A stretch of DNA of 64,000 bases from Nitrospira tepida (GTDB taxonomy: Bacteria > Nitrospirota > Nitrospiria > Nitrospirales > Nitrospiraceae): the NCBI RefSeq assembly GCF_947241125.1, contig NZ_OX365700.1, positions 682,001 through 746,000 of the forward strand. The letters are read 5' to 3'. A model generated the notes under the pieces. It did no database searches. It had not been told where the DNA came from and saw only the letters and a program-made list of their open reading frames with translations. Each line of letters opens with the position of its first letter. Positions within the stretch are counted from its first letter, which is position 1. The translations under genes were made by a program, and so were the position numbers. Positions 10,950 through 40,152 of this stretch are shown piece by piece.

Positions 10950-11143
10950 ACGTCGCAGCCTCCGCCGAGACTCCCCACGCATTTTTTCTAAGCCTAGCCG
11001 TCCGGGTTTCTTCCCCGAGAGCGTCTATTCTCTGTCATCGGTTCTGAGATCGATGGGAACGGAAGGAACAATGTCGAGGTTGGGCGACTCGGCGGTTCGC
11101 CCATTTCCGGGAGTGTGTGCGCGAAGCGCGTGGTGGAGGACGA

Positions 11144-15862: not shown

Positions 15863-16005
15863 TGGCTCCTACTCCGTCGACGGCGATCTGATTCCGGCTT
15901 CCGAGTCGGCCCTGTGTTGTTCTTTTCCATCCCCGTGAGGGTTTTCTCTCCTCCTGTGTCGTAGCAGATAGCGGCGACAGGAGAAACCGAGCACGGAGGG
16001 TGGTC

Positions 16006-21500: not shown

Positions 21501-21577
21501 ATCGAGGGTCCTCCACCGCCCTCTCCGGCCCTCCAATGTGGAGAGACCGGTCCCTGGCCGATGTTTTCTATTCCGGC

Positions 21578-21611
21578 GGATGAACATTCCCGCTCCCCCT
21601 GTCCTGTGATA
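21578..21611 (+). promoter_or_regulatory. Second copy of the GAACATTC/GTGATA promoter-like element
   Basis: GGATGAACATTCC (21578-21590) followed by GTGATA (21606-21611). The distance from GAAC to GTGATA is 20 bases, exactly as at 14160-14189. The sigma-factor ATG chosen here begins only 12 bases after the second box, so a transcript from this promoter would have a very short leader. Confidence 0.45.
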
Positions 21612-21623
21612 CGGTCTGCGGCC

Positions 21624-22163
21624 ATGAGTACGGAGGAATCGACCGCCTGGCCGGAATCGCCACAACGTTCTCTGCTGGAGACCTTCCGGCTGTGCGGCGG
21701 CGAGTTGCAGCGATTTCTCGCTCGCCGCCTGGGATGTCCCGATACCGCCGCTGATCTGGTCCAGGAAACCTTTGTGCGGCTCGCACAACTGCCGCCGGCG
21801 CAGCAGCCCGATAATCCTCGCGCGTTTCTGTTCCGGGTCGCCGCCAATCTCGCCGTGGATCACCAGCGCCGGTTGCGCTATGCCGCCCGCTACGAGGTAT
21901 GGGACGAGGCGGGCATCGAGACGGCCGATGAGCGTCCCTCGGCCGAAGCCGAAGTCTTGAGCAAAGAGCAGGTCGGGCGGCTGCACCGGGCCATCGCCGA
22001 GCTGCCGCCCAAGTGCCGCGACGTGTTCATCCTTCACAAGTTCCACCATCTGAGCTATGCGGACGTGGCGAAGCGGCTCGGCATCACCAAGAGCACCGTG
22101 GTCAAACATATGATCAAAGCGCTGGACTATTGCCGGCGGCGCGTTGAGGAGGAGCCGCTGTGA
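21624..22163 (+). CDS. FecI-family ECF sigma factor (unit 4)
   Basis: 179-residue ECF sigma factor. Region 2 has TAADLVQETFVRL and region 4 has SYADVAKRLGITKSTVVKH. I chose the ATG at 21624 (MSTEESTAWPESPQRSLLE). A longer in-frame start at 21561 would run through the conserved promoter-like element, so it is unlikely. The unit continues with a FecR-type gene, a receptor and then the siderophore biosynthesis operon, so this factor may tune production and uptake together. Confidence 0.93.
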   Translation: MSTEESTAWPESPQRSLLETFRLCGGELQRFLARRLGCPDTAADLVQETFVRLAQLPPAQQPDNPRAFLFRVAANLAVDHQRRLRYAARYEVWDEAGIETADERPSAEAEVLSKEQVGRLHRAIAELPPKCRDVFILHKFHHLSYADVAKRLGITKSTVVKHMIKALDYCRRRVEEEPL

Positions 22164-22245: not shown

Positions 22246-23271
22246 ATGACCCTCGCCATGACCGACAGGTCTCGGGAGACGCCCGCGGAGGCGGCGACAC
22301 GGTGGCTCGTGTTGTTGCAAGCCGACGACGCCAGAGCCGAACACCGGCGGGAATTCGCCGAATGGCTCGCCGCCGATCCGGCTCACCGGCTGGCGTATCG
22401 GGAGGCCGAGCGGTTCTGGGACCAGCTCGACGTCCTCCCCGAGCCGGACATTCAGGCGATGGGCGCGCTGCTGTCGCCTCGTGCCTCGGGCCCCGACAGG
22501 GCGGGCGCCGCAGCCCCACGGCGCGTCGGCTGGGTTGGCGCGTGGCGGCGGGCTGCCCTGCTCAGCGCTGCCGCCGCCTTGGCGGCCCTGTGTCTGGTGA
22601 GCCTGATCCAAACCTGGCATCTCGGAGCGGACTACCGCACGGCCACCGGCGAACAGCGGTCCGTCACGCTGAACGACGGATCGACGGTCCATCTCAATAC
22701 CGCCACGGCCCTGTCGGTGGAGATTACCCCGGCCGCCCGCCGGTTGGTCCTGCACGAAGGCGAAGCCTTCTTTTCCGTTGCGCCGGATACCCGGCGTCCC
22801 TTCGAGGTCGTGGCGGGGGGCGGCACGATTCGCGCCCTGGGGACGGCGTTCAATGTGCGAGCCGATGGAGGGCAGGTCGTCGTGACGGTCACCGAGCATG
22901 CCGTCCGCGTTATCGGCCATCGCGCAGCGGTTGACGTGCCGGAAGGCCGGCGTCTCTCGTACGGGTCGGCCGGCTCGTTCAGCCTTGTCGAGACGGCGGA
23001 TCTCGACCGAGCGCTCGCCTGGCGGCGCCATCGCCTTGTCTTCGAGCATCAGCCGCTGGCCGAGGTCATTGCGGAGGTAAACCGATACCGCCGCGGGTGG
23101 ATCGTGCTGCGTGACCCATCCCTGCAACGGCTTCCCGTGACGGCCGTCTTCGATATCCGCAGGACCCAACAGGCGCTCCAGACCATCGAAGAAACCCTTC
23201 CGATCCGAACGGTGGCCGTCACCGACCGGCTGGTGCTGCTGTCGCGTAAGACCGGGCCGTCTTCCCCCTGA
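22246..23271 (+). CDS. FecR-type anti-sigma/signal transducer (unit 4)
   Basis: 341 residues. N-terminal DUF4880 region (EAATRWLVLLQADDARAEHR). Membrane helix near residue 110 (AALLSAAAALAALCLVSLIQ). FecR domain with VTLNDGSTVHLNTATALS and VVAGGGTIRALGTAFNV. The C-terminus has WRRHRLVFEHQPLAEVIAEV and LPVTAVFDIRRTQQAL. The WxRG position again shows WRRH, as in unit 3, which fits descent of units 3 and 4 from one ancestor. An alternative ATG at 22258 is possible; neither has a clear ribosome-binding site. Confidence 0.92.
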   Translation: MTLAMTDRSRETPAEAATRWLVLLQADDARAEHRREFAEWLAADPAHRLAYREAERFWDQLDVLPEPDIQAMGALLSPRASGPDRAGAAAPRRVGWVGAWRRAALLSAAAALAALCLVSLIQTWHLGADYRTATGEQRSVTLNDGSTVHLNTATALSVEITPAARRLVLHEGEAFFSVAPDTRRPFEVVAGGGTIRALGTAFNVRADGGQVVVTVTEHAVRVIGHRAAVDVPEGRRLSYGSAGSFSLVETADLDRALAWRRHRLVFEHQPLAEVIAEVNRYRRGWIVLRDPSLQRLPVTAVFDIRRTQQALQTIEETLPIRTVAVTDRLVLLSRKTGPSSP

Positions 23272-23430: not shown

Positions 23431-25875
23431 ATGGCGCATCGGAGCCGTTTGGTCTTCATCAGTTTCCTGCTGGGCCTCGTCGTTCATGCCGGGTTCGCTT
23501 TGGAGACATCCGCTCAGCAACGTATACCCTTCAACATTCCGCCGCAGTCCTTGTCCTCGGCGCTGCTTCAGTTCTCGGAAACTGCGAATGTGGAATTGCT
23601 GGTAGACGCCTCGCTCACCAGCGCGCGCGAAAGTCCGGGGGTGACGGGAACGTATACGGCGGAAGAGGCGCTGAGCGCCCTCCTGGCAGGCACGGGTCTC
23701 ACCCATCGATTCACAAGCGGCGGAGCCGTAACCCTCGTGGAAGCGCCGGCCATGCCGGTGGCCCCGTCCGCTGCGCCGCCTGAAGGTCCGTCCGGCCTGT
23801 CGCCTCGCGCGGACGGGACGACGGGAAAACCGGTCAAGCTACCGGAAGTGCTGGTCAAAGACGTCCGTGAACGAGAGGATGCCGCCTCCTATGTGGCGGA
23901 GGAGACGAGCACTTCGACCAAGAGCGACACGCCGCTCATCGAGACCCCGCAGTCCATCACCGTGATCACGCGCGAACGGATGAACGCCCAGGAAGTCAAT
24001 ACCATCGCGGAAGCCTTGCGCTACACGGCCGGCGTCCAGGGCGAGCCGTTCGGATTCGAGCCGCGGTTCACCTTCCTGCGGTTCCGCGGATTCGACGCGA
24101 CGCAGAACGGATTGTTCAAGGACGGGCTCCAGCTCCGCAATCCGGGCTTCGCGGTCAGTTACAACCTCGAGCCCTACGGCGCCGAGCGGATCGACGTGCT
24201 CCGCGGGCCGGCCTCCTTCCTCTACGGACAGGGCAGCCCCGGCGGTTTGTTGAACTACATCACGAAGCGGCCGACGGGACAGACGTTCCATGAACTGCAA
24301 TTCCTGACCGGCAGTTTCAGCCGGTACGAAGGCCGGCTCGATCTCGGCGGCCGGGTCAACGACAGCGACGCGCTCGCGTTCAGATTGACCGGCCTCTTCC
24401 GCGAAAGCGGCACGCAGATCGATCAGGTGCCGAACGATCGGATCTACATCGCGCCCGCGCTGACGTGGCGGGCGGCCCCCGGCACCAAGATCACGTTCTT
24501 TGCGCACTTTCAGAAAGATCAGCTCGGTTCCTCCCAGGCCTTGCCGGCCGAGGGCACGTTGCGGGTCAATCCCAACGGGAGCATTCCGGCCGCCCGGTTC
24601 ACGGGCTTCCCCGATATTGAAAAGCAAAACAGAACGGAATCATCGGTCGGGTATGAATTGCAGCATCGTCTGGCCACGGACTGGGATTTCGTCCAGAAGC
24701 TCCGCTACAGCATGACCGAACTCGACCTCATGAACATCTTCAGCAGCAGCTTCGGAGCGGACCGCCGCACTGTCGGGAGAGGCGCCTTCGGATCGCTCGG
24801 CACATTGAACGCGCTGGCCATTGACAACCAAGTGCACGGCCGATTCTCGACCGGGCCGTTCCAGCACCTGGTGCTGGGCGGCTTGGACTTCCAGCGGATC
24901 ACGGTGAAGTTGCGGCAAACGTTCGGCGCCGCCTCCGACATCGATATTTTCAACCGGTTCGATTACGGCGCGCCCTTTCCGTTGCCCTCCCTGTTCCTGG
25001 ACCAACACGTCACCCAATGGCAGACGGGTCTCTATCTGCAGGATCAGATCAAGTTCTACGACAAGTGGCTGCTGACCGTGGGCGGACGTCATGACTGGGC
25101 GAACAACGACACGCAGGACAACCTTACGCCGTCGGCCAGCCAGAGCCAGGACGACCGCAAAGCCACCGGCCGGGCGGCCTTGACGTACCTCTTCGATTTC
25201 GGGCTGGCGCCATACGTCAGCTATTCCACGTTCTTCCTGCCGTCGATCGGTCTGAACCAATCGGGGCAGCCCTTTTCGCCGGAGACCGGCCGGCAATATG
25301 AAGTCGGCATCAAGTACCAGCCCCCGGGGTCACGCAGCTTCTTCACCGCGGCGTTGTTCGACCTCACGAGAGAAAATTACGTGCAGACCGATCCGGGGAC
25401 GTTTCTCCCGGTGCAACGGGGCAAGGCGCGCTCGCGCGGGCTTGAACTGGAAGGACTGGCGAGCTTCGACTCGGGCATCGACCTGATCGCCAGCTATACG
25501 CTGCTCGACAATGAAGTGATGGAGAGCGCCGATCCGACCGAGAAGGGCAAGCGGCTGACCCAAACTCCCGCGCAGTTCGGCTCGCTCTGGGTCAAGTACA
25601 CGGTTCCGGACGGAACCTGGAAGGGGTTCGGGATCGGCGGCGGCGCGCGGTACACGGGGTATACCTATTCGGACGTCGCGAACCAGTTCAGAGTCCCGAG
25701 CTTCGTGGTCGGGGACGCGGTCATCGACTACACCTGGCGCCGCTATCGGTTCGCGCTGAATATCAGCAACATCTTCAATCATGACGCGTTTTCCTGCTTC
25801 GATCGCGGAGGGACCAATTTCTGCGTCTTCGGCGAACGCCGCACCGTGGTCGGGACAGTCGCCTACCGGTGGTGA
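23431..25875 (+). CDS. STN-domain TonB-dependent siderophore receptor (unit 4)
   Basis: 814-residue receptor directly upstream of the siderophore biosynthesis genes, so it is the best candidate for the receptor of the native siderophore. Signal peptide ends near LETSAQ. STN domain about 30-90 (FNIPPQSLSSALLQFSET). Linker with KLPEVLVKDVREREDA. Plug from about 170 (TPQSITVITRERMNAQ, LRFRGFDATQNG, VLRGPASFLYGQGSPGG). The barrel ends FGERRTVVGTVAYRW, and the late segment HDAFSCFDRGGTNFCVFG matches the C-terminal pattern of ferrichrome/ferrioxamine-type FhuA/FoxA relatives. The ATG follows ggagggtctgtcgc. This receptor is the only one of the six that does not end in a phenylalanine or F-Y. Confidence 0.95.
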   Translation: MAHRSRLVFISFLLGLVVHAGFALETSAQQRIPFNIPPQSLSSALLQFSETANVELLVDASLTSARESPGVTGTYTAEEALSALLAGTGLTHRFTSGGAVTLVEAPAMPVAPSAAPPEGPSGLSPRADGTTGKPVKLPEVLVKDVREREDAASYVAEETSTSTKSDTPLIETPQSITVITRERMNAQEVNTIAEALRYTAGVQGEPFGFEPRFTFLRFRGFDATQNGLFKDGLQLRNPGFAVSYNLEPYGAERIDVLRGPASFLYGQGSPGGLLNYITKRPTGQTFHELQFLTGSFSRYEGRLDLGGRVNDSDALAFRLTGLFRESGTQIDQVPNDRIYIAPALTWRAAPGTKITFFAHFQKDQLGSSQALPAEGTLRVNPNGSIPAARFTGFPDIEKQNRTESSVGYELQHRLATDWDFVQKLRYSMTELDLMNIFSSSFGADRRTVGRGAFGSLGTLNALAIDNQVHGRFSTGPFQHLVLGGLDFQRITVKLRQTFGAASDIDIFNRFDYGAPFPLPSLFLDQHVTQWQTGLYLQDQIKFYDKWLLTVGGRHDWANNDTQDNLTPSASQSQDDRKATGRAALTYLFDFGLAPYVSYSTFFLPSIGLNQSGQPFSPETGRQYEVGIKYQPPGSRSFFTAALFDLTRENYVQTDPGTFLPVQRGKARSRGLELEGLASFDSGIDLIASYTLLDNEVMESADPTEKGKRLTQTPAQFGSLWVKYTVPDGTWKGFGIGGGARYTGYTYSDVANQFRVPSFVVGDAVIDYTWRRYRFALNISNIFNHDAFSCFDRGGTNFCVFGERRTVVGTVAYRW

Positions 25876-26050: not shown

Positions 26051-29000
26051 ATGGACACCATTCGCAAGATCCCTGCATCGATGTTGGCCGGCATGACAGC
26101 GACCACGCCGTCCGACGACCCGTTGTCGAGGGGGCGCCGCTGCCTCCTGGCCGGTTCGCGCGGAGGGCTCGCCCGGCTTCCGGCGGTGCTCGCAGGAGCC
26201 ATCGAGCGGGCGCTCGAATGCCAGCGCGATGACCGGCCGTTCCCTGCCGGTACGGCCGGGGAGGTGCTGAGCGCCGCTGAGGACCTGCTCGGGCCGGTCG
26301 AAGTGCCCACCGAGGGGATCGGCACGGACGCGGCGTTGGAACGACTGGCCAGAGTGCTGGCGGAATACGGACTCGACCTGTCCCATCCGCGGGCGGCGGC
26401 GCACCTGCAGCCGCCGCCGCTCTTGGTGGCAGTTGCCGCCGATGCGCTGGCCAGCATCAGCAATGCGTCGTTGGATACCTATGATTCCGGTCCGTCTGCG
26501 ATTGCCGTGGAACGCTGGTTGATCGGGGCGCTCGCCCGGATGGCCAAGCTGGGGCCGAAGGCGGACGGCGTCCTCACACCGGGCGGCTCGATCTCGAATC
26601 TCATGGGCCTGCTGCTGGCGCGCGACCGGGCCGCCCGGCGACGCGGAGTGGACATTCGCCGCGATGGGGTCGGGGCGCTGCCCGGTCCTCTGGTGCTCTG
26701 CTCGGAATGTGCGCATTTCTCGGTCCAGCGGGCCTGCGCCGCCTTGGGATTGGGGGAAGGCGCCGTCCGCACCGTCCCGACGGACGGAGGCCGGCGGATG
26801 TGTGCTCGGGCGTTGGGGGGCCTCCTGCGCGACCTGGCTCCACGCCACACGCTTGTGGCGGTCGTTGCCACCGCGGGCACGACGGACTTCGGGACGATGG
26901 ACCCAATTCCGGAGATCGCGCCACTCGCCGCGGAGTATGGCGTCTGGCTGCACATCGATGCCGCGTACGGCTTCGGCGCCTTGTTCTCCGAGCGCCTGGC
27001 GGATCGGCTGGCGGGTCTGGAGCGAGCCGACTCGATCACCGTAGACCTGCACAAGCTCGGCTGGCAGCCGGCGGCGGCGAGTATCTTGCTCGTGTCTGAC
27101 CACGCCGCGTTCGCCCCGTTGGACCGCGAAGTCGCCTATCTGAACCCGACCGATGATCAGGCGGCGGGCTACGACGGCCTGCTCGGCCGTAGCCTGCAGA
27201 CGACGCGCCGGCCGGATGCGGTGAAGGTCGTCGCCACGTTGCTGGCCTACGGCCGCCGGGGATTGGGGGATATGGTCGATGCCTGCCACGGCTTGGCCTG
27301 CCGCGCGCAGGAGCGGATCGAAGCCGAACCCAACCTGGAACTGGTGTCGCCGGCCGAGCTCACGACCGTCGTGTTCCGGTACCGGTGCACACATCGGCAC
27401 CGGGGGGATCTGGCCCAGATCGAGGACGACATCAACGGCGAATTGCGGCGGCGCCTGCTGGAGCGCGGGATGGCGCTGATCGGCCGCACCGCGGTGCGCG
27501 GGCAAGGGCCCGATTCACCCGAGCGCGTCTGCCTGAAGCTGACCCTGCTCAATCCCACCGCCTCCCCGCACGAGATCGACCACCTCCTCGACGCGGCGCT
27601 GGAGGCGGGCCGGGAGTGTGAAGAGGAGCGGCGGCTGTCAGCGATGGATCGGGTCATCACGGAGGACCCGGCCGGGGATCGGCGCGAGCATGATGTCATC
27701 GCGATCGGCTGCGGGCCGTTCAACCTGGGGTTGGCCGCGCTCGCGTCGACCATCACCGGGTTGGATCTTGTCGTCCTCGAGGCGCGCCCCGAGCTGCGGT
27801 GGCATCCCGGGTTGATGTTCGACGATGCCCGGCTCCAGCTCAGCTTCCTCGCCGACCTGGTGACGCTGGTCGATCCGACGCACCCACTGTCGTTCTTGGC
27901 CTACCTCCGGGACGTCGATCGCATGTACCCGTTCTACATCCGCGAGCAGTTTCATCCGACCCGCGTCGAATACGAGGACTACCTCCGGTGGGCGGCCTCC
28001 CGATTGCCGGCCGTGCGGTTCTCGCACCGGGTCGAAGCGGTTCACTGGGACGAAGCCCGGGAGCGGTTTGTCGTTGAAACGACGCGTGGCGACGGCGCGC
28101 GGCTCGCCCTGGCGGCCAAACATTTGGTGATCGGCATCGGCACCGAATCGTACGTGCCCGAGGCGTTGGCCGGACTGCCGGCGGACAGGCTGGTGCGCGC
28201 CGGAGACTATCTGGACCGCCGGAGCGAGGTGGAACGCGCATCGCATGTGACGGTGGTCGGCGCCGGGCAATCCGGCGCCGAGATCATGGTCGATCTGCTG
28301 ACGCAGAATCTGGCCGGCGGGCCCGCCGTGAGCTGGCTGACCCGGACGCGGTCGTTCGCGCCCCTCGACTACACGAAGCTCGTCCTGGAGATGACGACGC
28401 CGGCCTACGTCCGGTACTTCCATCGGTTGCCCCAGCCGGTGAAAGACCGGCTGGTCGCCGAACAGTGGCAGCACTACAAGGGGATCTCGACCGAAACCCT
28501 GGAGCAGATCCACGACCTGCTGTACCGGCGGCGGCTCAAGCTCGAATCGTCCCCGGTCGACCTCCGGTGCGGTGTCACGATCGAGTCGGCCCGGCAGGAC
28601 GGGTCCGGCCGGCCGGTCCTGCACTGTCGCCATCGCGACACCGGGGCGGTCTTCCCGCACAGCACGGATCTCGTGATCGCGGCGACCGGGTACCGGCACC
28701 GCCGGGCGTCCTTTCTCGGCCCGATCGAGGGGAGGCTGCGCCGAGACGAGCAGGGGCGCTACAAAGTCCGACTCGATCATTCCCTGGAGCTGGCCGACTC
28801 GATCAGCGGGCGCATCTTCGTCGCCCACGCGGACCTGCACAGTCATGGCGCGGCCGCGCCGGATCTCGGCATCGCGCCGTACCGCAATGCCGTCATTCTC
28901 AATGCCATCGTGGGGCGAGAAGTCTACCGGCTCCCGATATCAACGGCGTTCAGCACCTTCGACGCCCCGGGGTCCGACACAGGAGCGTTCGTTTCGGCGC

Positions 29001-29107
29001 ATCCAGGAGAAAGTGCGGTGCTTGCGCCGGCTTGCGACTCCGCACCTAGGCACGCCCTGCGCAGGACAGCCGGCGATCCCACACGTTCGGGCGCGTGTCG
29101 AGCATGA
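26051..29107 (+). CDS. Fused PLP-dependent amino-acid decarboxylase and FAD/NADPH diamine N-hydroxylase (siderophore biosynthesis)
   Basis: 1018 residues joining two enzymes normally separate. Residues about 1-520 are a group II PLP decarboxylase (DesA or diaminobutyrate-decarboxylase type). They show HIDAAYGFGALF, the PLP lysine in DSITVDLHKLGWQP (about K335) and SLQTTRRPDAVKV. Residues about 540-990 are an IucD/AlcA/DesB-type N-monooxygenase. The FAD motif is GCGPFNLGLAALA, substrate-region motifs are SFLADLVTLVDP and PLDYTKLVLEMTTP, the NADPH motif is GAGQSGAEIM, and ATGY closes it. Together they would turn a basic amino acid into a diamine and hydroxylate one amine, the first two steps to a hydroxamate. 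The substrate (lysine, ornithine or diaminobutyrate) cannot be read from sequence. The stop overlaps the exporter start (ATGA). Fusion is supported by one open frame with both cores intact. Confidence 0.92.
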   Translation: MDTIRKIPASMLAGMTATTPSDDPLSRGRRCLLAGSRGGLARLPAVLAGAIERALECQRDDRPFPAGTAGEVLSAAEDLLGPVEVPTEGIGTDAALERLARVLAEYGLDLSHPRAAAHLQPPPLLVAVAADALASISNASLDTYDSGPSAIAVERWLIGALARMAKLGPKADGVLTPGGSISNLMGLLLARDRAARRRGVDIRRDGVGALPGPLVLCSECAHFSVQRACAALGLGEGAVRTVPTDGGRRMCARALGGLLRDLAPRHTLVAVVATAGTTDFGTMDPIPEIAPLAAEYGVWLHIDAAYGFGALFSERLADRLAGLERADSITVDLHKLGWQPAAASILLVSDHAAFAPLDREVAYLNPTDDQAAGYDGLLGRSLQTTRRPDAVKVVATLLAYGRRGLGDMVDACHGLACRAQERIEAEPNLELVSPAELTTVVFRYRCTHRHRGDLAQIEDDINGELRRRLLERGMALIGRTAVRGQGPDSPERVCLKLTLLNPTASPHEIDHLLDAALEAGRECEEERRLSAMDRVITEDPAGDRREHDVIAIGCGPFNLGLAALASTITGLDLVVLEARPELRWHPGLMFDDARLQLSFLADLVTLVDPTHPLSFLAYLRDVDRMYPFYIREQFHPTRVEYEDYLRWAASRLPAVRFSHRVEAVHWDEARERFVVETTRGDGARLALAAKHLVIGIGTESYVPEALAGLPADRLVRAGDYLDRRSEVERASHVTVVGAGQSGAEIMVDLLTQNLAGGPAVSWLTRTRSFAPLDYTKLVLEMTTPAYVRYFHRLPQPVKDRLVAEQWQHYKGISTETLEQIHDLLYRRRLKLESSPVDLRCGVTIESARQDGSGRPVLHCRHRDTGAVFPHSTDLVIAATGYRHRRASFLGPIEGRLRRDEQGRYKVRLDHSLELADSISGRIFVAHADLHSHGAAAPDLGIAPYRNAVILNAIVGREVYRLPISTAFSTFDAPGSDTGAFVSAHPGESAVLAPACDSAPRHALRRTAGDPTRSGACRA

Positions 29108-30297
29108 CCCTCAAGCTCCTGCTGGTGCTGGTGACCGTCATCGCGGTGGTCGGCGACAGCTTGCTGGCTCCGTTTTATCCGCACTACTTTGCGGACGTGT
29201 TCGGCCTGCGCGATCCGGAGCACGTGGGCTTCTACATCGGAGCCTCTTGCTTCACCGTGATGGCGGCCTTTCCGTTCTGGGCCTGGGTCGCCAGGTATCT
29301 GCCCGCGCTGCGCCTGCTGGTCTACACCCAGCTCGCCGCCGGACTTCTGTGCCTGCTGTCGTATGGCGCCGGGTCGCTCCCGATCTTTTGGCTGATGTCG
29401 CTCGGGATGTTTACCTTCAAGGCCAGCTACCTGCTCATCTATCCCTACCTGCTGAGCGAGGAGGCCAAGGACCGCCATGTCGGCACGATCGGGTTGCTCT
29501 CCGTCATCGTGCACCTTGGAGGCATCCTCGGAGCGTTGCTCTCCGGCCTGGTCCTCCAAGTATTGGAGCCGCGCCATCTGTTCCTGGTCATGGCGGCCTG
29601 TGACCTGACGCAGGCGCTCATCTGCCTGCCGTTGGCAAGAGACCAGCAGCGCGGCGCGACCGGTCGGGCAACCGAGTCGCTCCGAGCGCCAAGCCGGGAG
29701 CCGAGAAGCCGGGCGACCGTCCTCGTCTACCGTCTCGGTGCGGTCATGCTGCTCTTCTATTTCAGCGCGTTTCTGACCCGGCCGTTCTTTACCCTGTACT
29801 GGGAGTCGATGTCCGGGCTGGACAATCGCCTGGTCGCCGGCCTGGTCTACGCGATTCCGGGAATCGTGGCCCTGGCGGCGCTGTGGCTCGGGGCGCGACG
29901 GGGCGCGGGTGACGAGGGCCGCCACAGGGTCGTCACGGCCCTTCTCGCGGGGCTGCTCGGGAGTCTGCTCCAAGCCTCTCCCCAGGAGCTGCTCGTGCTG
30001 ATCGGGCGCGGCATCTTCGGCTGGGCGCTGTTCCAGGGGGCCGTTCGTCTCGACCTGCTGTTGTTTCAGCGGAGCGATCCCGAGCGCTACGCGACCGACT
30101 TCAGCAAGATCCACGTGTTTCAACAGCTCGGCGTCCTCTGCTCGTCATTCGCGGCCGGGTCGCTCGTGACAACCCATGGCCTTCGGGCGCCGTTTGTGGT
30201 CGCGTCGGTCGGATTTGTCGCGACCATCTTGTTGTATCGGTGGCTCTTACACCCTGGTGCGCAGCCGGCGGTCAGCAGGGTGACGGCCGCGTTATGA
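29104..30297 (+). CDS. Major-facilitator transporter, probable siderophore exporter
   Basis: 397-residue inner-membrane protein with about 12 hydrophobic helices, for example LLLVLVTVIAVVGDSLLAPF and IGLLSVIVHLGGILGALLSG. The ATG overlaps the stop of the decarboxylase/hydroxylase gene, and its own stop overlaps the next start, both as ATGA. A transporter between siderophore-synthesis enzymes is usually the exporter of the product. Import of the ferric complex across the inner membrane is the less likely alternative. Specificity is not visible in the sequence. Confidence 0.88.
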   Translation: MTLKLLLVLVTVIAVVGDSLLAPFYPHYFADVFGLRDPEHVGFYIGASCFTVMAAFPFWAWVARYLPALRLLVYTQLAAGLLCLLSYGAGSLPIFWLMSLGMFTFKASYLLIYPYLLSEEAKDRHVGTIGLLSVIVHLGGILGALLSGLVLQVLEPRHLFLVMAACDLTQALICLPLARDQQRGATGRATESLRAPSREPRSRATVLVYRLGAVMLLFYFSAFLTRPFFTLYWESMSGLDNRLVAGLVYAIPGIVALAALWLGARRGAGDEGRHRVVTALLAGLLGSLLQASPQELLVLIGRGIFGWALFQGAVRLDLLLFQRSDPERYATDFSKIHVFQQLGVLCSSFAAGSLVTTHGLRAPFVVASVGFVATILLYRWLLHPGAQPAVSRVTAAL

Positions 30298-32780
30298 GCC
30301 ACATGTTGCAGGAGGAAGTTCACGAACCGGAGGAACCTATGCGAAGACAGGACCCATGTTTTGAGAAGGATGTTCCGGCTGTTGGTCGGTTCACGCTCCG
30401 GATGCTGGATGTGCCGGATGACATTCCGCTGGTGCACCGCTGGGTCACGCATGAGCGCGCCAAGTACTGGGGCATGCAACAGCAGTCCGTCGATGACGTC
30501 GAGTCGGCCTATAGGGAGATTCTGAGGCAGCCGGGTTCATCCGTGTTCCTCGGGTTTCACGACGACGAGCCGGCGTTTCTTGTCGAGCGCTATCACCCGA
30601 TGGAGGACGTGGTGGGTCGCTATTACGACGCCCGCCCGGGCGACCGGGGCATGCATATCCTGGTGGCGCCGACAGACCGGCCGATCGCCCAGTTCACCTG
30701 GCATGTCTTCACCGTCGTCATGGATTTTCTCTTCAGCGAGGACTCGGTGGAGCGTATCGTGGTCGAGCCGGACGTCAGGAACGAGAAGATTCACCGGCTG
30801 AACAGGCGTGCCGGCTTCGAATACCAGGACATCATCCAGTTGCCGAAGAAGACCGCCTACCTGGCATTCTGTACGAGAGCCCGGTACCAGACTGCCCTCA
30901 AGCGGAACGGCGGCGAACGAGGCTGGGCCCCCATGTCCGGCGCGGACACCGGCGTTTCGCATCTGACTCCGGGCCTGTGGTCGACGGTCAATGTTCTTCT
31001 GGTCCGAAAGATCATTCGCGAGTTCGCTCACGAGCTGCTGCTGGAACCGCGGCGCACCGGCTCGGAAGGCGGCTGGGAACACTATGTTCTGGGCACCGAC
31101 AGCCCGGACATCGAATATCGGTTTCGCGCGAAGGTGTTGCATCTGGAGCACTGGCACATCGACGCGGCCTCCATCGAAAAATACGCCCGCGGCAAAAGGG
31201 CCCGCCTCGATGCCCTGAGCTTCATCCTGGAAATCCGCCGGCTCATCGGCATCGACCCCGCCATGCTGCCGACCTATATGGAAGAGATCACGAGCACGTT
31301 GTATGGCGGCGCCTACAAGCATGCCAACCAGGAGCTTGGCGCGGTGGAACTCGCCCATGCCGGGTTCCAGGATATCGAACGAGGCATGGCGGAGGGGCAT
31401 CCTGTATTCGTCGCGAACAACGGCCGCATCGGCTTCGACGTGCGGGATTATCGGACCTACGCGCCGGAGGTCGGAGCGGACGTTCGGCTCGTCTGGCTGG
31501 CCGCGCACAAGAGCCGTGCGACGTTCGCCTCCGCCAGCGACCTGAGCTATGGGGATCTGATGCAAAAGACGCTCGGCGCGCCAACCGTGCAGGCCTTCAC
31601 CGAGATCCTGCGGCGGGAAGGGTTGAATCCGGACTCGTACCTCTTTTTCCCGGTTCACCCGTGGCAATGGGAGAACAAGCTCGCCTGTCTGTTCGCCCCC
31701 GACCTGGCCTCTCGGAAGTTGCTGTATCTCGGAATCGGCGAAGAGGTCTATCGCGCGCAGCAGAGCATCCGCACGTTCTTCAACTTTACGCGTCCGGAGA
31801 AACACTACATCAAAACCGCGCTGTCCATCTTGAACATGGGGTTCATGCGCGGGCTCTCCTCCTCTTACATGGAGACGACGCCCGCCATCAACGAATGGAT
31901 CCATGCCCTGATCGAGGGGGACTCGTACTTGCGGGACAGCGGGTTCGGGATTCTGCGCGAGGTCGCGTCCGTCGGCTATCGGCACCCGCATTATGAAGCG
32001 GCGGTCACCGGGGACAGCCCCTATAAGAAAATGCTGGCTGCGCTCTGGCGCGAAAGCCCGGTGCCGCGCTTGGCGGCGGGAGAACGGCTCATGACGATGG
32101 CGGCGCTGTTGCATCGGGACCGTGACGGCGTCGCGCTCCTCCCGGAGCTCATCCGGGCGTCCGGCGTGGGCGCGGAGCAATGGGTGCGGCGATATCTCCG
32201 CTGTTATCTGGCTCCGCTCCTGCACTGCTTCTACGCGCACGATCTGGTGTTCATGCCGCACGGGGAGAACATCATCCTCGTGTTGCGGGACCATGTGCCG
32301 GTCCGCGTGGTTCTCAAGGACATTGCGGAGGAATCGGCGGTCCTCGACGCCCGGGTGCTGCCCGAGAAGGTCCGCCGCCTGTCGGTTTCGGTTCCGGAAG
32401 AGATGAAGGTGCTGTCGCTCTTCGTCGACGTGTTCGACTGTTTCTTCCGCTACCTGGCCGAGCTGTTGTGGGAGGAGCGCCTGTGTTCCGAGACGGGCTT
32501 CTGGCGGCTGGTGGCGGAATGCGTGCTGGAGTATCAATGGAAACATCCGGAACTGTCGGAGAAGTTCCGGCGCCACGATCTGTTCGCTGCAGAATTTCGG
32601 CGCTCCTGCCTCAACCGGTTGCAGATCGCCAACAATCGCCAGATGATCGATCTGGCGGATCCGGCGAAGAACCTGCAGTTTGCAGGGACGCTGGCCAATC
32701 CGATCGCGCCGTTTCGCTCGACCGGGCGAGAGGACGGCCACATCCGGGAGTTCATTGATGAGCCGACAAGCGTAGTGTGA
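30294..32780 (+). CDS. Fused GNAT acyltransferase and IucA/IucC (NIS) siderophore synthetase
   Basis: About 828 residues. Residues about 20-190 are an IucB/AlcB/DesC-type acyltransferase (FTLRMLDVPDDIPLVHRWV, and EDSVERIVVEPDVRNEKIHR then LNRRAGFEYQ). It would acylate the N-hydroxylated diamine. Residues about 200-800 are an NRPS-independent siderophore synthetase that uses ATP to join carboxylate and amine. It shows GHPVFVANNGRIGF (about 368), FPVHPWQWENKL (about 453), ILNMGFMRGLSSS, HGENIILVLRDHVPVRVVLK, and a C-terminal FhuF-like region. With a single NIS synthetase, condensation of the hydroxamate units themselves (alcaligin, bisucaberin or desferrioxamine logic) is more likely than a citrate core; this is inference. 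The ATG at 30294 overlaps the exporter stop; ATG 30339 has a better site (ggaggaacct) and is a serious alternative. Confidence 0.92.
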   Translation: MSHMLQEEVHEPEEPMRRQDPCFEKDVPAVGRFTLRMLDVPDDIPLVHRWVTHERAKYWGMQQQSVDDVESAYREILRQPGSSVFLGFHDDEPAFLVERYHPMEDVVGRYYDARPGDRGMHILVAPTDRPIAQFTWHVFTVVMDFLFSEDSVERIVVEPDVRNEKIHRLNRRAGFEYQDIIQLPKKTAYLAFCTRARYQTALKRNGGERGWAPMSGADTGVSHLTPGLWSTVNVLLVRKIIREFAHELLLEPRRTGSEGGWEHYVLGTDSPDIEYRFRAKVLHLEHWHIDAASIEKYARGKRARLDALSFILEIRRLIGIDPAMLPTYMEEITSTLYGGAYKHANQELGAVELAHAGFQDIERGMAEGHPVFVANNGRIGFDVRDYRTYAPEVGADVRLVWLAAHKSRATFASASDLSYGDLMQKTLGAPTVQAFTEILRREGLNPDSYLFFPVHPWQWENKLACLFAPDLASRKLLYLGIGEEVYRAQQSIRTFFNFTRPEKHYIKTALSILNMGFMRGLSSSYMETTPAINEWIHALIEGDSYLRDSGFGILREVASVGYRHPHYEAAVTGDSPYKKMLAALWRESPVPRLAAGERLMTMAALLHRDRDGVALLPELIRASGVGAEQWVRRYLRCYLAPLLHCFYAHDLVFMPHGENIILVLRDHVPVRVVLKDIAEESAVLDARVLPEKVRRLSVSVPEEMKVLSLFVDVFDCFFRYLAELLWEERLCSETGFWRLVAECVLEYQWKHPELSEKFRRHDLFAAEFRRSCLNRLQIANNRQMIDLADPAKNLQFAGTLANPIAPFRSTGREDGHIREFIDEPTSVV

Positions 32781-32888: not shown

Positions 32889-32961
32889 ATCCCAATTCGT
32901 GAAGCGGCCGGAGGGTCTCGAATCCCGGAGCCCATTTTCCAGAATGGAGGGGAACGAGACC

Positions 32962-34224
32962 ATGGCCGGATCGCCCGTCGCCGTTCAAGAGCCTGTCGCT
33001 GCCTCGGCGGAGGTCGGCGCCGCCCCGCCGCCCGCCTCCACTGTGCTCCGGCATCCGCTTCGCCGACTGTGGTTGCAAACCCACCTCTACCTCGGCCTGG
33101 TCGTCGGCGGCCTCTTCGTGCTCGTCAGCCTCACCGGCAGCCTGCTCGTGTTTTATAAGGCCATCGACGGATGGCTCAATCCGGATCTGCTCCGCAGCCG
33201 GTCTGCGGGCGAATCCCGCCCGCTCAATGACATTGTCGCAGCGGCGCGGGCCGCAAGACCGAATGGAGGCGGCTTGGAGCACATCCGGCTTCCTGACCAT
33301 CCGGACGATACGGTCCTGGTCTGGTACACGATTCCGACCCATGACCCGGAAGAACCCCGCTGGATCGAAGTTCGGATCGACCCGGCGACGGCCGAGGTGT
33401 TGAGCCCCGGCCGCGAGTGGGGCGGCACGCTGGTGTCGTTCATCTACGAACTGCACGAATCGTTGCTGATCGACAAACCAGGCCAAACCATCGTGGGCTT
33501 CCTCGGCCTGTTCCTGCTCGTCTCAGTCGGCACCGGCCTCTATCTCTGGTGGCCGAGCCTCGGCCGGCTGCGACAGGCGTTTTCATGCAAACCCGGTCGG
33601 AGCGTCATTCGGTGGCATTACGATCTCCACAAGCTCAGCGGTTTCTACAGCGCGATCATCCTGGCCGTGCTCGCGTTCACCGGCGTCTATCTGGAGTTCT
33701 CCGAGTATGTCGTTCCGCTGGTCAGAATCTTCTCGCCGGTGCAGGAATTTCCCAAGAAGGGCGACCTGCGCTCCAGTCCTCCCGCACCCGGCGCGCCGGC
33801 GCTGTCCGCCGAGCAGGCGGTGGCCCGCGCGCGGGAAATTGTTCCGGAAGGGGAACTCAAGTTTCTTTCGGTCCCGGACCATCCGGAGGGCGTCTTTCGA
33901 ATCGGGCTGCGCCAGCCCGGCGAGGTGCGGGAATCAGGCGGGCAGAGCCAGGTGTGGCTCGATCAATACAGCGGCGCGGTCTTGAAGGTCCGCGACTGGC
34001 GGAACTTCACCGCCGGTGATACATTCCTGGCCTGGCTGTTCCCCCTGCACAACGGCGAGGCCTTCGGATTGGCGGGACGATGGATCGTGTTTGCGAGCGG
34101 CGTGATCCCATTGGTCCTCTACGTCACGGGACTTCGCATGTGGTGGCTGAAGCGGCGGGCCCATCAACGGCAGCGGGCAGGAACAGTCGCCTCGGTCGCG
34201 CAGGAGCGCTTCGCACATGATTGA
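32962..34224 (+). CDS. PepSY-associated transmembrane protein after the siderophore operon
   Basis: About 420 residues, inner membrane. The first helix is LGLVVGGLFVLVSLTGSLLV, followed by a periplasmic PepSY-like region. Further helices include IVGFLGLFLLVSVGTGLYLW, FYSAIILAVLAFTGVYLEF and WIVFASGVIPLVLYVTGLRM. Histidines near helices (YELHESLLID, WHYDLHKLSG, FPLHNGEAFG) could bind heme, as proposed for reductases of this family. It is clearly related to the protein at 18442 but longer. It overlaps the following ZIP permease gene by 8 bases. I infer reduction of ferric siderophore with the ZIP protein taking up released iron. The ATG at 32962 follows ggagggg. Confidence 0.88.
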   Translation: MAGSPVAVQEPVAASAEVGAAPPPASTVLRHPLRRLWLQTHLYLGLVVGGLFVLVSLTGSLLVFYKAIDGWLNPDLLRSRSAGESRPLNDIVAAARAARPNGGGLEHIRLPDHPDDTVLVWYTIPTHDPEEPRWIEVRIDPATAEVLSPGREWGGTLVSFIYELHESLLIDKPGQTIVGFLGLFLLVSVGTGLYLWWPSLGRLRQAFSCKPGRSVIRWHYDLHKLSGFYSAIILAVLAFTGVYLEFSEYVVPLVRIFSPVQEFPKKGDLRSSPPAPGAPALSAEQAVARAREIVPEGELKFLSVPDHPEGVFRIGLRQPGEVRESGGQSQVWLDQYSGAVLKVRDWRNFTAGDTFLAWLFPLHNGEAFGLAGRWIVFASGVIPLVLYVTGLRMWWLKRRAHQRQRAGTVASVAQERFAHD

Positions 34225-34969
34225 CCTGATCGGGTTGGGCCTCGTGGCCGGCGTCATCCCGGTCTATCTCGGCATCGGCGTCGCCCTGGCGCTCGGCAAG
34301 ATCCTGCCGCGATCCTGGGAGGGCGCCTTGATCGGCGTGGCGACGGGCGTGTTGGCCTACCTCTTTTTCGACCTCATGCACGAAGCCGTGGAGCTGACCG
34401 GCGCGCGGGATGGAGTCTCGTGGGGCGTGTTTCTGGGTAGTCTCGGCATCAGCTTGATCGGCCTCGTCGCGTTGGAATCCAGCCAGATCCTTGGGACCGG
34501 ATCAACCGGCCGCCTGCTCTCGCTTCCGTACATGATCGCCGTCGGCATGGGGTTGCACAATCTGGGGGAAGGCTTGGCGATCGGCGCCAGCTATGCCGCC
34601 GGGGAGTGGGTCCTCAGCGCGCTGCTCGTAACCGGGTTTGCGCTCCACAACGGAACCGAAGGGTTCGGGATCGTTGGGGCTGCCGGAAAGGCTCCGTTGC
34701 CATGGCTCGATGTGTGGTGGCTTGGCCTGTTGGCCGGCGGTCCCACCTGCGTCGGCACCCTGTTGAGCGGGCAGGGCCTGTCTCCGTATTTCTCGATTGC
34801 CTTCTATACGCTCGCCGCCGGCTCGCTGCTCTATGTGATTCTGTCGCTCACCGCGATGTCCTACACGGCGTCGCGTCGTCTCCAAGTCGCCTCCGGCGTC
34901 TTTGCCGGCATCAGCCTCATGTATGTCACGGCCATGGTGCTGACCCTCGTGTCGGGCATCCGCAGCTAA
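34217..34969 (+). CDS. ZIP-family metal permease
   Basis: 250-residue inner-membrane protein with about eight hydrophobic helices. The metal-binding helices carry the family motifs HNLGEGLAIG (about residue 114) and HNGTEGFGIVG (about residue 145). The start lies within the end of the PepSY gene (8-base overlap), so the two are translated together. ZIP proteins import zinc, ferrous iron or manganese; ferrous iron is the natural guess here because of the neighbours, but zinc cannot be excluded. Confidence 0.88.
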   Translation: MIDLIGLGLVAGVIPVYLGIGVALALGKILPRSWEGALIGVATGVLAYLFFDLMHEAVELTGARDGVSWGVFLGSLGISLIGLVALESSQILGTGSTGRLLSLPYMIAVGMGLHNLGEGLAIGASYAAGEWVLSALLVTGFALHNGTEGFGIVGAAGKAPLPWLDVWWLGLLAGGPTCVGTLLSGQGLSPYFSIAFYTLAAGSLLYVILSLTAMSYTASRRLQVASGVFAGISLMYVTAMVLTLVSGIRS

Positions 34970-35933: not shown

Positions 35934-36449
35934 ATGAGCCTGACGTCCCAGGACATCGAGCGGCTGTTTCACGAGTGCCGGCAACAGTTGATCCGGTCGC
36001 TCTATCGCATCGTCCGCTGCGAAGATGCGGCCGCGGACCTGGCGCAGGAGACCTATTTGCGCCTGGTCAGCCTGGCCCCGACCACCTCCGTGGCCTATCC
36101 GCGCGCCCTGCTGTTTCGGACCGCCGCCAATTTGGCGATCGATTACCTGCGCCAAGGCCAGGCCAGGCGGCGGACGGGCGAGGCGCTCGAAGCGGCGGCG
36201 GACGTCCCCTCGGCGGCGCCCCCCGCCGATCGCGCTCTGTTCGACAAGCAGCGGCTCAGAATCTTCCTGGATGCCATCGACAGCCTGCCGCCTCGCAGCC
36301 GGGAAGCTTTTCTTTTGCATCGGGTCCACGACTGTTCCTACCGGGCCATCGCCGCCAAACTGGGCGTGTCCGAAAGCGCCGTGGAGAAATTGATCATGCG
36401 GGCGCTGCTCCATTGCCGGCGGGCGTTGCAACAACGCCAGGCGGAGTGA
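35934..36449 (+). CDS. FecI-family ECF sigma factor (unit 5)
   Basis: 171-residue ECF sigma factor. Region 2 has AAADLAQETYLRL and region 4 has SYRAIAAKLGVSESAVEKL. It resembles the factor at 4948 over the whole length (both have RSLY-IVRCE and AYPRALL-RTA-NLAID), and the two share the operator-terminator type of leader. Here, however, the zinc-ribbon gene lies between leader and sigma gene. The FecR-type gene begins one base after the stop. Confidence 0.95.
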   Translation: MSLTSQDIERLFHECRQQLIRSLYRIVRCEDAAADLAQETYLRLVSLAPTTSVAYPRALLFRTAANLAIDYLRQGQARRRTGEALEAAADVPSAAPPADRALFDKQRLRIFLDAIDSLPPRSREAFLLHRVHDCSYRAIAAKLGVSESAVEKLIMRALLHCRRALQQRQAE

Positions 36450-36450
36450 C

Positions 36451-37530
36451 ATGAGGGACTGGCACCCTCATCCGTCAGAGCCTATACTCGCCCCATCCCG
36501 GAATCTGTCCGGCAGTCCCAGTGGGTGCCCCGCGATCATGCCGACCTCCGACGAACGGCCGCCATTCGATCCGCCGCTCGGCGAGGAGCCGACCCCATCC
36601 GATGAGGCGCTCGCTTGGTTCACACGCCTGAGGTCCGGCCGCCTCTCGCCGGAGGAGCGGCGAGAATTCGACCGGTGGCGGCAGAACAGTCCGGGCCATG
36701 CGCGGGCCTTCGACGAGGTCTGCGAGCTGTGGGACGATCCGGCGCTCAAGGCCGCGGCCTTGGTGGCGGACGAGCGCTCGCCTTTCCTTGGTTCAACGGC
36801 CCCACCGCGACGACGCCGGCTCACGCGGATGCTGCAAGCGGCCGCGGTGGCCGCGCTTGTGATTGGCCTCGGCCTGCAACTGGACCTTCCGACTCGCCTG
36901 ACCGCCGACCAGCAGACCGCCGCCGGCGAGCGGCGCACGATTCAACTCCCCGACCGCTCCACGGTGACGCTGAACACCGACAGCGCCTTGGCCGTGCAAT
37001 TCAACGCGGCCACCCGGCGCGTGCGCCTGTTGAAGGGCGAAGCGTGGTTTCAGGTGCAACCGGAGGAAGGGCGGGCGTTCATCGTGGAAAGCGGGCGGCT
37101 CCTGACCCGCGCCGTGGGAACCGAATTTCTTGTTCGGGAAGAACGGCAAGGGGTCCGGGTCACCGTCGTCGAGGGTATGGTGGAGTTGGCGCCGAACGGA
37201 CCGGCTTGGGCGCCGCTTCGCGTGGAGGCAGGCCGGCAGGTCTCCGTCGATGCGGGCGGTCCCGGGCCAGTGCGCGAGGCGGATCTCTCGACTGCCACGG
37301 CCTGGCTCAAGGGCCGCCTCGTGGTCGATAACGTCCGTCTGGGGGATCTGGTCGGGGAACTGCGCCGGTACCATGCGGGCGCCATTCTCGTCGTGAATCC
37401 TTCCATCGCCGACATCAAAGTCAGCGGCAGTTACACGCTCGCCGATCCCGCCGGCGTGCTCACGACGTTGACGCAGACGCTGCCGGTTCGAATGGCCCGC
37501 CTCACGAATCGCCTCGTCATCCTCTTCTAA
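36451..37530 (+). CDS. FecR-type anti-sigma/signal transducer (unit 5)
   Basis: 359 residues from the ATG at 36451, which has aggcggag upstream. An in-frame ATG at 36538 would remove a proline/serine-rich stretch and is possible. The DUF4880 region is SDEALAWFTRLRSGRLSPEE. A membrane helix follows near residue 130 (LQAAAVAALVIGLGLQL). The FecR domain contains IQLPDRSTVTLNTDSALA and VESGRLLTRAVGTEFLV. The end shows WLKGRLVVDNVRLGDLVGEL and IKVSGSYTLADPAGVL. It is expected to control the adjacent sigma factor in response to the receptor at 37639. Confidence 0.92.
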   Translation: MRDWHPHPSEPILAPSRNLSGSPSGCPAIMPTSDERPPFDPPLGEEPTPSDEALAWFTRLRSGRLSPEERREFDRWRQNSPGHARAFDEVCELWDDPALKAAALVADERSPFLGSTAPPRRRRLTRMLQAAAVAALVIGLGLQLDLPTRLTADQQTAAGERRTIQLPDRSTVTLNTDSALAVQFNAATRRVRLLKGEAWFQVQPEEGRAFIVESGRLLTRAVGTEFLVREERQGVRVTVVEGMVELAPNGPAWAPLRVEAGRQVSVDAGGPGPVREADLSTATAWLKGRLVVDNVRLGDLVGELRRYHAGAILVVNPSIADIKVSGSYTLADPAGVLTTLTQTLPVRMARLTNRLVILF

Positions 37531-37638
37531 CCCTGGATTCAGAAATTTTTTCATCCGCACGTGAGGGACGGTTGTTTCCTTCCGTCAAGGAGGAGTCGCG
37601 GCGATGGGTCGTCGCGCTGCAACCGGAAGGGAGAAGCC

Positions 37639-40152
37639 ATGTCGAGACGGGGATGGAGCTGCAGGTCGGGGTACGGGTGGTGGCCATGGACGGCGCCGGC
37701 GGCCATGGCGCTGGCGCTGACGATCGGTCAATCGGCGGCTGCGGCGCAGCCTGCCGCCTCCGGCCAGGGCGAGCGGGCGCCGGTTACCTTCGACATCGCT
37801 GCCCAACCGCTTACGTCCGCCTTGCATGCCTTTGCGGAGACGACCGGGCTCCAGGTCAGCTATCCGGCGGAGCTGGCGGCCGGCGTCAGCTCACCGGGCG
37901 TCGCCGGCCGCTATGAGCCGGAGGCGGCGTTACGAGCGCTCCTGGCTGGCACGGGATTGACCTATCGGTTTACCGATGCCCACACGGTCACGCTCGTGGA
38001 GGGCCAATCCGGGTCGATGATGACCCCGGCGCCGGCGACTCCGCGGGAAGGGTTGGCGGTACCCGAACCCCCGCGTGGCGGGGCCGGTTCGCCCAGGTTC
38101 AAGGCGATCAAGGTGCCGGAAATCGTCGTCCGCGAGAGCAAGGAAGTCGGCTACAAGACGGATGAGGAAGTCTCCTCGCCGACGAGACTCCCGGGGCCGG
38201 TCCGCGATCTGCCCCAGTCTGTCGAAGTGATCACGCGCAAGCTCATGGACGATCAGAAGGCGGTTCGCATCCAGGACGTCATCCGCAACGTCAGCGGCAC
38301 CTTCATCAGCTCGACCGGAGGAGGGCGGCAGGAGTTCATCAATATCCGGGGGATCACGAGTTTCGCGGATCTGAACATCTTCAAGAACGGATTTCGGGAT
38401 GACAGCGGGTTTGCGAACCGGGTGTTCAGAGAAACCGCCAATCTTCAGCGGATTGAGGTCTTGAAAGGACCGGCTTCCTTTCTCTATGGCCGGGCCGCGC
38501 CAGGCGGGATCATGAACCTGATCACCAAGAAGCCGCTAGAGGAGCCGTACTATTCGGCGGACCTCATTTTCGGCAGCTACAATCTCTATCGCCCTTCGAT
38601 CGATGTCTCCGGTCCGCTCAACGCCAGCAAGTCGTTGCTGTATCGATTCAACGGTCTGTACGAGAGCGGCGGCAGCTTCCGCGACGGAGTAAAACACGAC
38701 CGCGTCTTTGCCGCGCCGAGTTTCAGTTGGACCCTGGGATCGCGGACTCGCCTCCTGTTCGACATGGAATATCTCTACGACGATCGCGTGATCGATCGCG
38801 GTCTTCCGGCCATCGGCCGTGGGGTTGCCCCGGTGCCGATCTCGACCTTTCTCGGCGATCCCAACCGCCGGACCGAGTTTCACCAGGGGAAAGCCTTTCT
38901 GGTCCTGCTCCATGAACTCTCGAACAACTGGACCTGGCGGACGGGCTTTCGCACCGCGATCGCCAGCGAAGCATATGATTCGATCGAGCAGACCGGAAAC
39001 GCGACGGCGACCGGCAACATCGGATTAGTGCGGTTCGAGCAACCGACGACGGCGCAGAGTCATTACTTGCAAAACGAAGTCGTCGGGGTCTTCTCGACCG
39101 GGTGGTTGGGCCATCGCCTGCTGGCGGGTGTCGAAATCGGACGCGAGCGCCTGGATCAGACCATCGTTCGAACCGGCTTCGGCACCACCAACGTGTTCAA
39201 CCCGACCCGGGTCTTTACGCCGACGACGGCGGCCGCCAACATCTTCGATGGGTACGGCGTGGCGAATTTCATCGCCCCATACCTCGTGGATCAAGTCGCG
39301 CTGCTCGACAATCTAAAGCTCTTTCTGGGAGGCCGGTTCGACATCTTCAAGCAGGAGGACGTTCAAGGAGGGGTCTCGACCGCGAGCGTCTCGGAGAACT
39401 TTTTCAGTCCGATGCTGGGAGTCAACTATCAACCGGTGAAACCCGTGTCGCTCTACGCGAACTTCAGCCGCTCGTTCGCGCCGCAGTTGGGCGCCATTAC
39501 GCAAGACAATCAGGTCATCCGTCCGGCGACAGGGACGCAATATGAAGCCGGAGTGAAAACCGAGCTGTTTGACGGTCGTCTGTTCACCAATCTGGCGGTC
39601 TTTCAGATCACGCAGCGCAATCTGGCGACGTTCGATCCGACCGATCCAACCTTTCGGTTCTCGCTGCCGACCGGCGAACGCCGCAGCCAGGGTGTTGAGT
39701 TGGACGTGGCCGGCCGGGTGATGCCGGGCTTGGACGTGATCGCCACCTATGCCTACATTGATGCAGAGAATAGGTCCGACGATTCGGTTCTGGGCATCGC
39801 ATCAGGGAATACGTTGGCCAATGCGCCGCTTCACAGCGGGAGCCTCTGGGGCACCTATACGATTCAAAGCGGTCCCCTCCGCAACTTCGGCGCCGGCGTC
39901 GGCTTCTATGCCGCCGCCAAGCGCCTGGGAGACTTACAAAACACGTATGAGATGCCGGGTTACGTTCGCTTGGATGCGGCGCTGTACTACCGGAAACTCG
40001 AGGTGTTCAAACGCACGAACCTCACCGCCGCCCTCAATTTCCGGAATCTGTTGGATCACGAGTATTTCGAAGGAAGCCGCGAGAACCGCCGCGAAGTGTA
40101 TCCGGGTGTGCCCTTCACCGTGCTCGGGTCGATCAGGCTGGAGTTTTATTAG
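37639..40152 (+). CDS. STN-domain TonB-dependent siderophore receptor (unit 5)
   Basis: 837-residue receptor. Long N-region signal peptide with the core APAAMALALTIGQSAAAAQ. STN domain about 50-110 (FDIAAQPLTSALHAFAET, ending YRFTDAHTVTLVE). The linker motif is KVPEIVVRESKE, a variant of the KLPEVLVKD seen elsewhere. Plug from about 185 (LPQSVEVITRKLMDDQ, INIRGITSFAD, VLKGPASFLYGRAAPGG). Barrel ends SIRLEFY. It is most similar by eye to the unit 1 receptor at 6634, in keeping with the similarity of their sigma factors. The ATG at 37639 follows ggaaggga. The T-rich box AGAAATTTTTTCATCC lies at 37541-37556. Confidence 0.95.
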   Translation: MSRRGWSCRSGYGWWPWTAPAAMALALTIGQSAAAAQPAASGQGERAPVTFDIAAQPLTSALHAFAETTGLQVSYPAELAAGVSSPGVAGRYEPEAALRALLAGTGLTYRFTDAHTVTLVEGQSGSMMTPAPATPREGLAVPEPPRGGAGSPRFKAIKVPEIVVRESKEVGYKTDEEVSSPTRLPGPVRDLPQSVEVITRKLMDDQKAVRIQDVIRNVSGTFISSTGGGRQEFINIRGITSFADLNIFKNGFRDDSGFANRVFRETANLQRIEVLKGPASFLYGRAAPGGIMNLITKKPLEEPYYSADLIFGSYNLYRPSIDVSGPLNASKSLLYRFNGLYESGGSFRDGVKHDRVFAAPSFSWTLGSRTRLLFDMEYLYDDRVIDRGLPAIGRGVAPVPISTFLGDPNRRTEFHQGKAFLVLLHELSNNWTWRTGFRTAIASEAYDSIEQTGNATATGNIGLVRFEQPTTAQSHYLQNEVVGVFSTGWLGHRLLAGVEIGRERLDQTIVRTGFGTTNVFNPTRVFTPTTAAANIFDGYGVANFIAPYLVDQVALLDNLKLFLGGRFDIFKQEDVQGGVSTASVSENFFSPMLGVNYQPVKPVSLYANFSRSFAPQLGAITQDNQVIRPATGTQYEAGVKTELFDGRLFTNLAVFQITQRNLATFDPTDPTFRFSLPTGERRSQGVELDVAGRVMPGLDVIATYAYIDAENRSDDSVLGIASGNTLANAPLHSGSLWGTYTIQSGPLRNFGAGVGFYAAAKRLGDLQNTYEMPGYVRLDAALYYRKLEVFKRTNLTAALNFRNLLDHEYFEGSRENRREVYPGVPFTVLGSIRLEFY

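Follow-up and report, generated by a model that had tools for sequence, protein, structure and literature searches.

Gene organization at the locus

The window, as the whole 64,000-nucleotide stretch of Nitrospira tepida DNA that was analysed is called here, contains a run of three overlapping genes on the forward strand. The first (26051..29107) is an open frame of 1018 aa that encodes a fused decarboxylase–diamine N-hydroxylase (PF00282 and PF13434), and the third (30294..32780) encodes a GNAT acyltransferase fused to an NIS synthetase (828 aa; PF13523, PF04183, and PF06276). Between them lies the gene for an MFS transporter (29104..30297; PF07690), a candidate siderophore exporter. This gene overlaps both of its neighbours, starting at ATG 29104 within ATGA 29104-29107 and ending in the ATGA at 30294-30297, within which the third gene starts at ATG 30294. 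A reading made from the sequence alone had described a hydroxamate NIS pathway of just this form, with four activities in two proteins and an exporter gene between them, and the domains and motifs reported below are complete for all four activities.

Pfam searches placed an ECF sigma factor (21561..22163) and a FecR anti-sigma regulator (22246..23271) upstream of the operon on the same strand, followed by a TonB-dependent receptor with an STN domain (23431..25875). The receptor was FoxA/FhuA-like by ferrioxamine/ferrichrome receptor models and matched the ferrioxamine receptor FoxA (8b43) with an E value of 3e-129 and the receptor 3qlb with 3.7e-157. Downstream, also on the forward strand, is a FoxB-like PepSY_TM inner-membrane reductase (32899..34224; PF03929), the sole solved relative of which is the PepSY protein 7abw (E 1.3e-17), presumably FoxB. 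The gene that overlaps it (34217..34969, forward strand) encodes a probable ZIP-type metal transporter, a label based on a weak match (E 3e-4) to the solved membrane protein 5tsa, which we take to be a ZIP. FoxB-type proteins are periplasmic ferric-siderophore reductases (PMC10866019). No Fur box scoring better than shuffled sequence was found upstream of the operon, and a weak Fur-box-like match (13/19) is located at 32849, ahead of the reductase gene.

The window also holds a dense array of ECF-sigma, FecR, and TonB-receptor genes (5-25875 and 35934-40152), in which most receptors have a FecR gene beside them. Five receptors are found at 5-2236, 6634-9144, 11117-13711, 16000-18426, and 23431-25875, and a sixth at 37561-40152. 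PepSY_TM reductase genes are two in number, one (18442-19608) following a TonB receptor and the other (32899-34224) being that which overlaps the probable ZIP transporter. Directly after a TonB receptor gene, positions 2245-4047 encode a 600-aa protein that combines TPR repeats with a C-terminal sulfotransferase domain. A 1623-aa ORF (53700-58571) contains a multicopper oxidase domain and gave a partial match to the manganese-oxidising oxidase MnxG (140 bits against a cut-off of 3100).

The decarboxylase–hydroxylase protein

Translation of the first ORF revealed no internal stops, in agreement with the single frame of the sequence-only reading, and decarboxylase and hydroxylase are both full-length. 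In Pfam searches Pyridoxal_deC covers residues 92-445 (E 4.6e-48) and Lys_Orn_oxgnase covers residues 547-883 (E 1.1e-106), and the catalytic motifs of both are intact. The group II PLP decarboxylase domain (residues about 61-526; 26231..27628) aligns to DfoJ (5o5c) and a DABA decarboxylase (2qma); the PLP-binding motifs HK, AHFS, and HIDAAYG are kept in the alignment with DfoJ, and K335, H222, and D303 are the aligned PLP-site motif positions. The FAD/NADPH diamine N-hydroxylase domain (residues about 545-975; 27683..28975) aligns to DesB (6xbb), DfoA (5o8p), and the putrescine hydroxylase 7us3. Alignment with DesB and DfoA identified the motifs GCGPFN (FAD), GAGQSG (NADPH), and ATGY, and residues Q596 and D938 are the equivalents of DesB Q61 and D391.

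Adjacent unfused decarboxylase and hydroxylase genes could be found at 66 sampled loci (about 60 distinct), and in 50 of these 66 pairs the decarboxylase stop lies in a 4-base overlap, ATGA or GTGA. None of the 66 is fused, and the fusion was seen at the window locus only in the sampled locus set. No decarboxylase–hydroxylase fusion appeared among the matches listed from 379, 396, and 398 genomes of the phyla of three relatives, nor a second one among those listed from 175 genomes of the window's own family; these were genome samples with limited candidate scoring, and it is for them that the absence holds. Relative to the genomes sampled here, the fusion is apparently new. Hydroxylase frames of ~1000 aa in L035, L049, L055, and L116-L131 were rejected as fusions because the decarboxylase sits in another frame.

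Most simply, the fusion would have arisen when a 4-base overlap became a single frame through an indel or the loss of a stop. Alignment to Myxococcus homologues shows the decarboxylase part continuing as far as its usual C-terminal end, near residue 533, and the hydroxylase part beginning immediately thereafter at its usual N-terminus, with no part of either protein missing. Because the genes of relatives already overlap by 4 bases and both proteins are complete, a neutral in-frame merger would account for the arrangement. A one-base error that erased the stop between genes overlapping or abutting in the living cell would leave the same picture, and it would fit the unfused state of all sampled relatives, the out-of-frame TGA at 27619, just beyond the decarboxylase homology, and the in-frame ATG at 27647. 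Such an artefact is nevertheless quite improbable: the genome is a single contig that is 100% complete, third-position G+C stays high in the same frame right across the junction so that the codon signal is unbroken, in-frame homology extends over the decarboxylase to its natural end and over the hydroxylase from its natural start, and ATG 27647 lacks a well-spaced upstream ribosome site. It had also been proposed that the pairing serves channelling of the reactive hydroxylamine; for this fusion that would mean a selected module that passes the diamine, or shields the hydroxylamine, between active sites. The domain pairing does follow the reaction order, as that proposal had it. However, the AlphaFold model of the 1018-aa protein, although it contains two confident domains, has a pTM of 0.56 and low-confidence stretches at the linker placed by the junction alignment (residues 535-542; 27653..27676; pLDDT below 50) and in the tail beyond residue 975, so domain orientation is not fixed by the model. 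This short low-confidence linker, together with the 4-base overlap already present in relatives, weakens the channelling proposal; the fusion point is an ordinary gene junction minus its stop, no second lineage with the fusion was seen in the samples, and the transfer of the reactive hydroxylamine from step 2 to step 3 would still take place between two proteins. A channelling function selected for as such is therefore considered unlikely, and an in-frame merger is preferred.

The GNAT–NIS protein

The order of Pfam domains in the 828-aa frame is Acetyltransf_8 (GNAT), then IucA_IucC and FhuF, again as read from the sequence alone. Residues 30-808 align to residues 16-787 of DfoC (PDB 5o7o) with an E value of 7e-282, and the NIS motifs HPWQW, QQSIRTFFN, KTALSILNMGFMRGLS, HGENIIL, and KDIAEE are present in alignments with DfoC, AlcC, and DesD. 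The phylogenetic tree places the NIS domain with DesD, DfoC, and AlcC (support 100), apart from the citrate-type synthetases, and this domain is the one NIS match in the entire genome, which upholds the single self-condensing synthetase suggested previously. By sequence the enzyme is assigned to type C′, the self-condensing group.

GNAT and NIS domains share one frame in 14 entries of the locus set, repeats and the window included. This fusion is already known from DfoC of Erwinia amylovora, the structure of which is solved (5o7o), from BibC of Aliivibrio salmonicida, which combines the activities of PubB and PubC (PMC8891985) and whose gene unites homologues of mbsC and mbsD (PMC5577590), and from BsbCD1 (PMC6164419). 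Because these proteins share the architecture, the GNAT–NIS half of the finding is not new. The window protein resembles DfoC and BibC in joining GNAT and NIS in one protein, colinear with DfoC, but it is about 54-55% identical to its nearest homologues. Gene order also varies, with the MFS gene downstream of GNAT–NIS in Pantoea vagans and upstream of it in the window. The sequence-only reading had taken the four activities to be separate proteins in known pathways and had named earlier characterisation of the fusions as a point against itself; for GNAT–NIS it is overtaken by DfoC and BibC, whereas for the decarboxylase–hydroxylase pair it stands, this architecture having been found in the samples at the window locus only.

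Relationships to other loci and known systems

Phylogenetic trees place both halves of the first protein beside proteins from the Myxococcaceae (support 97 for the hydroxylase and 83 for the decarboxylase), in a wider clade that also takes in Pseudonocardiaceae, Gordonia, and Nocardia. DesA/DfoJ and DesB/DfoA lie apart from it, a distance that would count against a desferrioxamine-type reading. The nearest relatives of both halves (about 72%) come from Myxococcaceae and Pseudonocardiaceae clusters with two NIS synthetases. The Myxococcaceae clusters (L010-L017 and L022) have the closest decarboxylases (71-74%) and hydroxylases (67-72%) but, unlike the window, contain two NIS synthetases and an unfused GNAT, with genes about 2.4 kb apart.

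The MFS gene is in the same position at L024, L035, and L156. The order at L024 and L035 is decarboxylase, hydroxylase, MFS, GNAT–NIS, with the first junction unfused, and that at L156 is decarboxylase, hydroxylase, MFS, GNAT, NIS, with a further GNAT–NIS. In L035 (Proteobacteria bacterium DTSAM18) and L156 the decarboxylase and hydroxylase belong to the clade of the window enzymes and are followed by MFS and GNAT/NIS, but they are encoded by separate overlapping genes. Because clade, MFS gene, and GNAT/NIS order are shared, the window operon is a fused variant of the L035/L156 type. A tree uniting the window hydroxylase with those of L035 and L156 alone was rejected (p 0.014); the equivalent for the decarboxylase was not (p 0.29). 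The idea that the operon newly recombines two types of pathway was considered and dropped, as enzymes of this clade already occur with MFS and GNAT–NIS in L035 and L156.

Like DfoJ-DfoA-DfoC and DesABCD, the window operon encodes four activities with one type C′ synthetase, and a ferrioxamine-like receptor lies near it; it differs from these systems in the fusion of its decarboxylase to its hydroxylase and in the subclade to which these two belong. Other fusions in NIS pathways involve other domain pairs, as in the corynebactin synthetase CiuE, with two fused NIS domains (PMC7857480), and in IucAC/AcD of Pedobacter (PMC10609062). In Kocuria palustris (L064, 9335-11230), an N-hydroxylase and a GNAT (steps 2 and 3) occupy one 632-aa frame. 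The rhb genes of S. meliloti were located in L154.

Any NIS match was found in only 2 of 296 sampled genomes of the window's phylum. The second, from the same family (L157), contains three consecutive, distantly related NIS synthetases in a different siderophore locus. This distribution suggests that the pathway was acquired by transfer. Recent transfer as judged by base composition was not retained; G+C is 69% in the first ORF against 63% in the window, and third-position G+C hardly differs.

Proposed pathway and product

The gene content is that expected of a desferrioxamine-type system: PLP decarboxylase, FAD diamine N-hydroxylase, GNAT, and type C′ NIS synthetase are grouped at one locus, and the synthetase is a single self-condensing one that has no citrate-type partner. 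The probability that this is a desferrioxamine-type NIS siderophore operon in which the first fusion is an in-frame merger, its halves working as in relatives, is put at roughly 80%. Decarboxylation, diamine N-hydroxylation, acylation, and NIS adenylation and joining of units make up the desferrioxamine and bisucaberin pathways (PMC5577590). From the architecture, motifs, relationships, and gene order described above, we infer the following reactions, substrates, and product. The decarboxylase domain of the first protein would convert L-lysine (possibly L-ornithine) to a diamine, which its hydroxylase domain would N-hydroxylate, each half acting as its relatives do. The GNAT domain of the second protein would then acylate the hydroxylamine, succinyl-CoA being the likeliest donor, and the NIS domain would activate the carboxylate with ATP (adenylation) and build a macrocycle from two or three units. 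Export of the siderophore would fall to the MFS protein, the FoxA/FhuA-like receptor would bring its ferric form into the periplasm, and the FoxB-like PepSY_TM reductase would release the iron, with the ECF-sigma/FecR pair probably sensing the loaded receptor.

The sequence-only reading had left the diamine open and considered that the product could be new. No DABA aminotransferase was found in the operon, and the best TIGR00709 match in the genome reached 168 bits against a cut-off of 401.6; cadaverine from lysine is therefore the likeliest diamine. DABA-type siderophore decarboxylases that lack a DABA aminotransferase were reportedly shown by Burrell et al. in 2012 to be lysine decarboxylases, and the window has the corresponding gene content of a cadaverine route, namely a DABA-decarboxylase homologue with no DABA aminotransferase above cut-off. 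Together with the ferrioxamine-like context, this makes cadaverine and a known macrocycle the default, and the product would be expected to be a ferrioxamine-like macrocycle. Gordonia is among the genera of the wider clade, and an enzyme from it is named a lysine/ornithine decarboxylase in the title of a reference given in PMC7824959. A different diamine (putrescine or 1,3-diaminopropane), leading to an alcaligin- or putrebactin-sized or a new smaller macrocycle, is nonetheless a possibility of some weight, if a doubtful one, since the substrate loop in the decarboxylase pocket reads DTYDSGPS in the window against DTWDQSAG in DfoJ. The NIS domain groups with AlcC (putrescine) as well as DfoC, and related hydroxylases accept several diamines (PMC8009421). 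The best NCBIfam model for the decarboxylase is the DABA decarboxylase RhbB, though far under its cut-off, but identity to RhbB is only 42%, and the missing aminotransferase speaks against this reading too. A citrate-based hydroxamate of the schizokinen/arthrobactin type, which might be imagined from the two-NIS clusters that house the closest decarboxylases and hydroxylases, is scarcely credible: the sole NIS domain of the genome belongs to the self-condensing group, and the rhizobactin/schizokinen combination of two NIS synthetases with a DABA aminotransferase was not found in the genome. Very improbable, likewise, is a two-enzyme lysine-to-macrocycle route in which the first fusion is tuned for direct hand-over of the diamine and a non-cadaverine pocket gives rise to a new macrocyclic hydroxamate.

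Significance

The feature is real; one of its fusions is known, and the other is apparently new and mechanistically simple. Understanding of NIS siderophore synthesis is unchanged by it. What it adds to a well-studied pathway is a domain architecture, the decarboxylase–hydroxylase, that was unseen in the genomes sampled here, and with it a compact two-enzyme cassette for desferrioxamine-like chelators. A bacterial family in whose other 174 searched genomes no comparable decarboxylase–hydroxylase match was found is now seen to carry the pathway.
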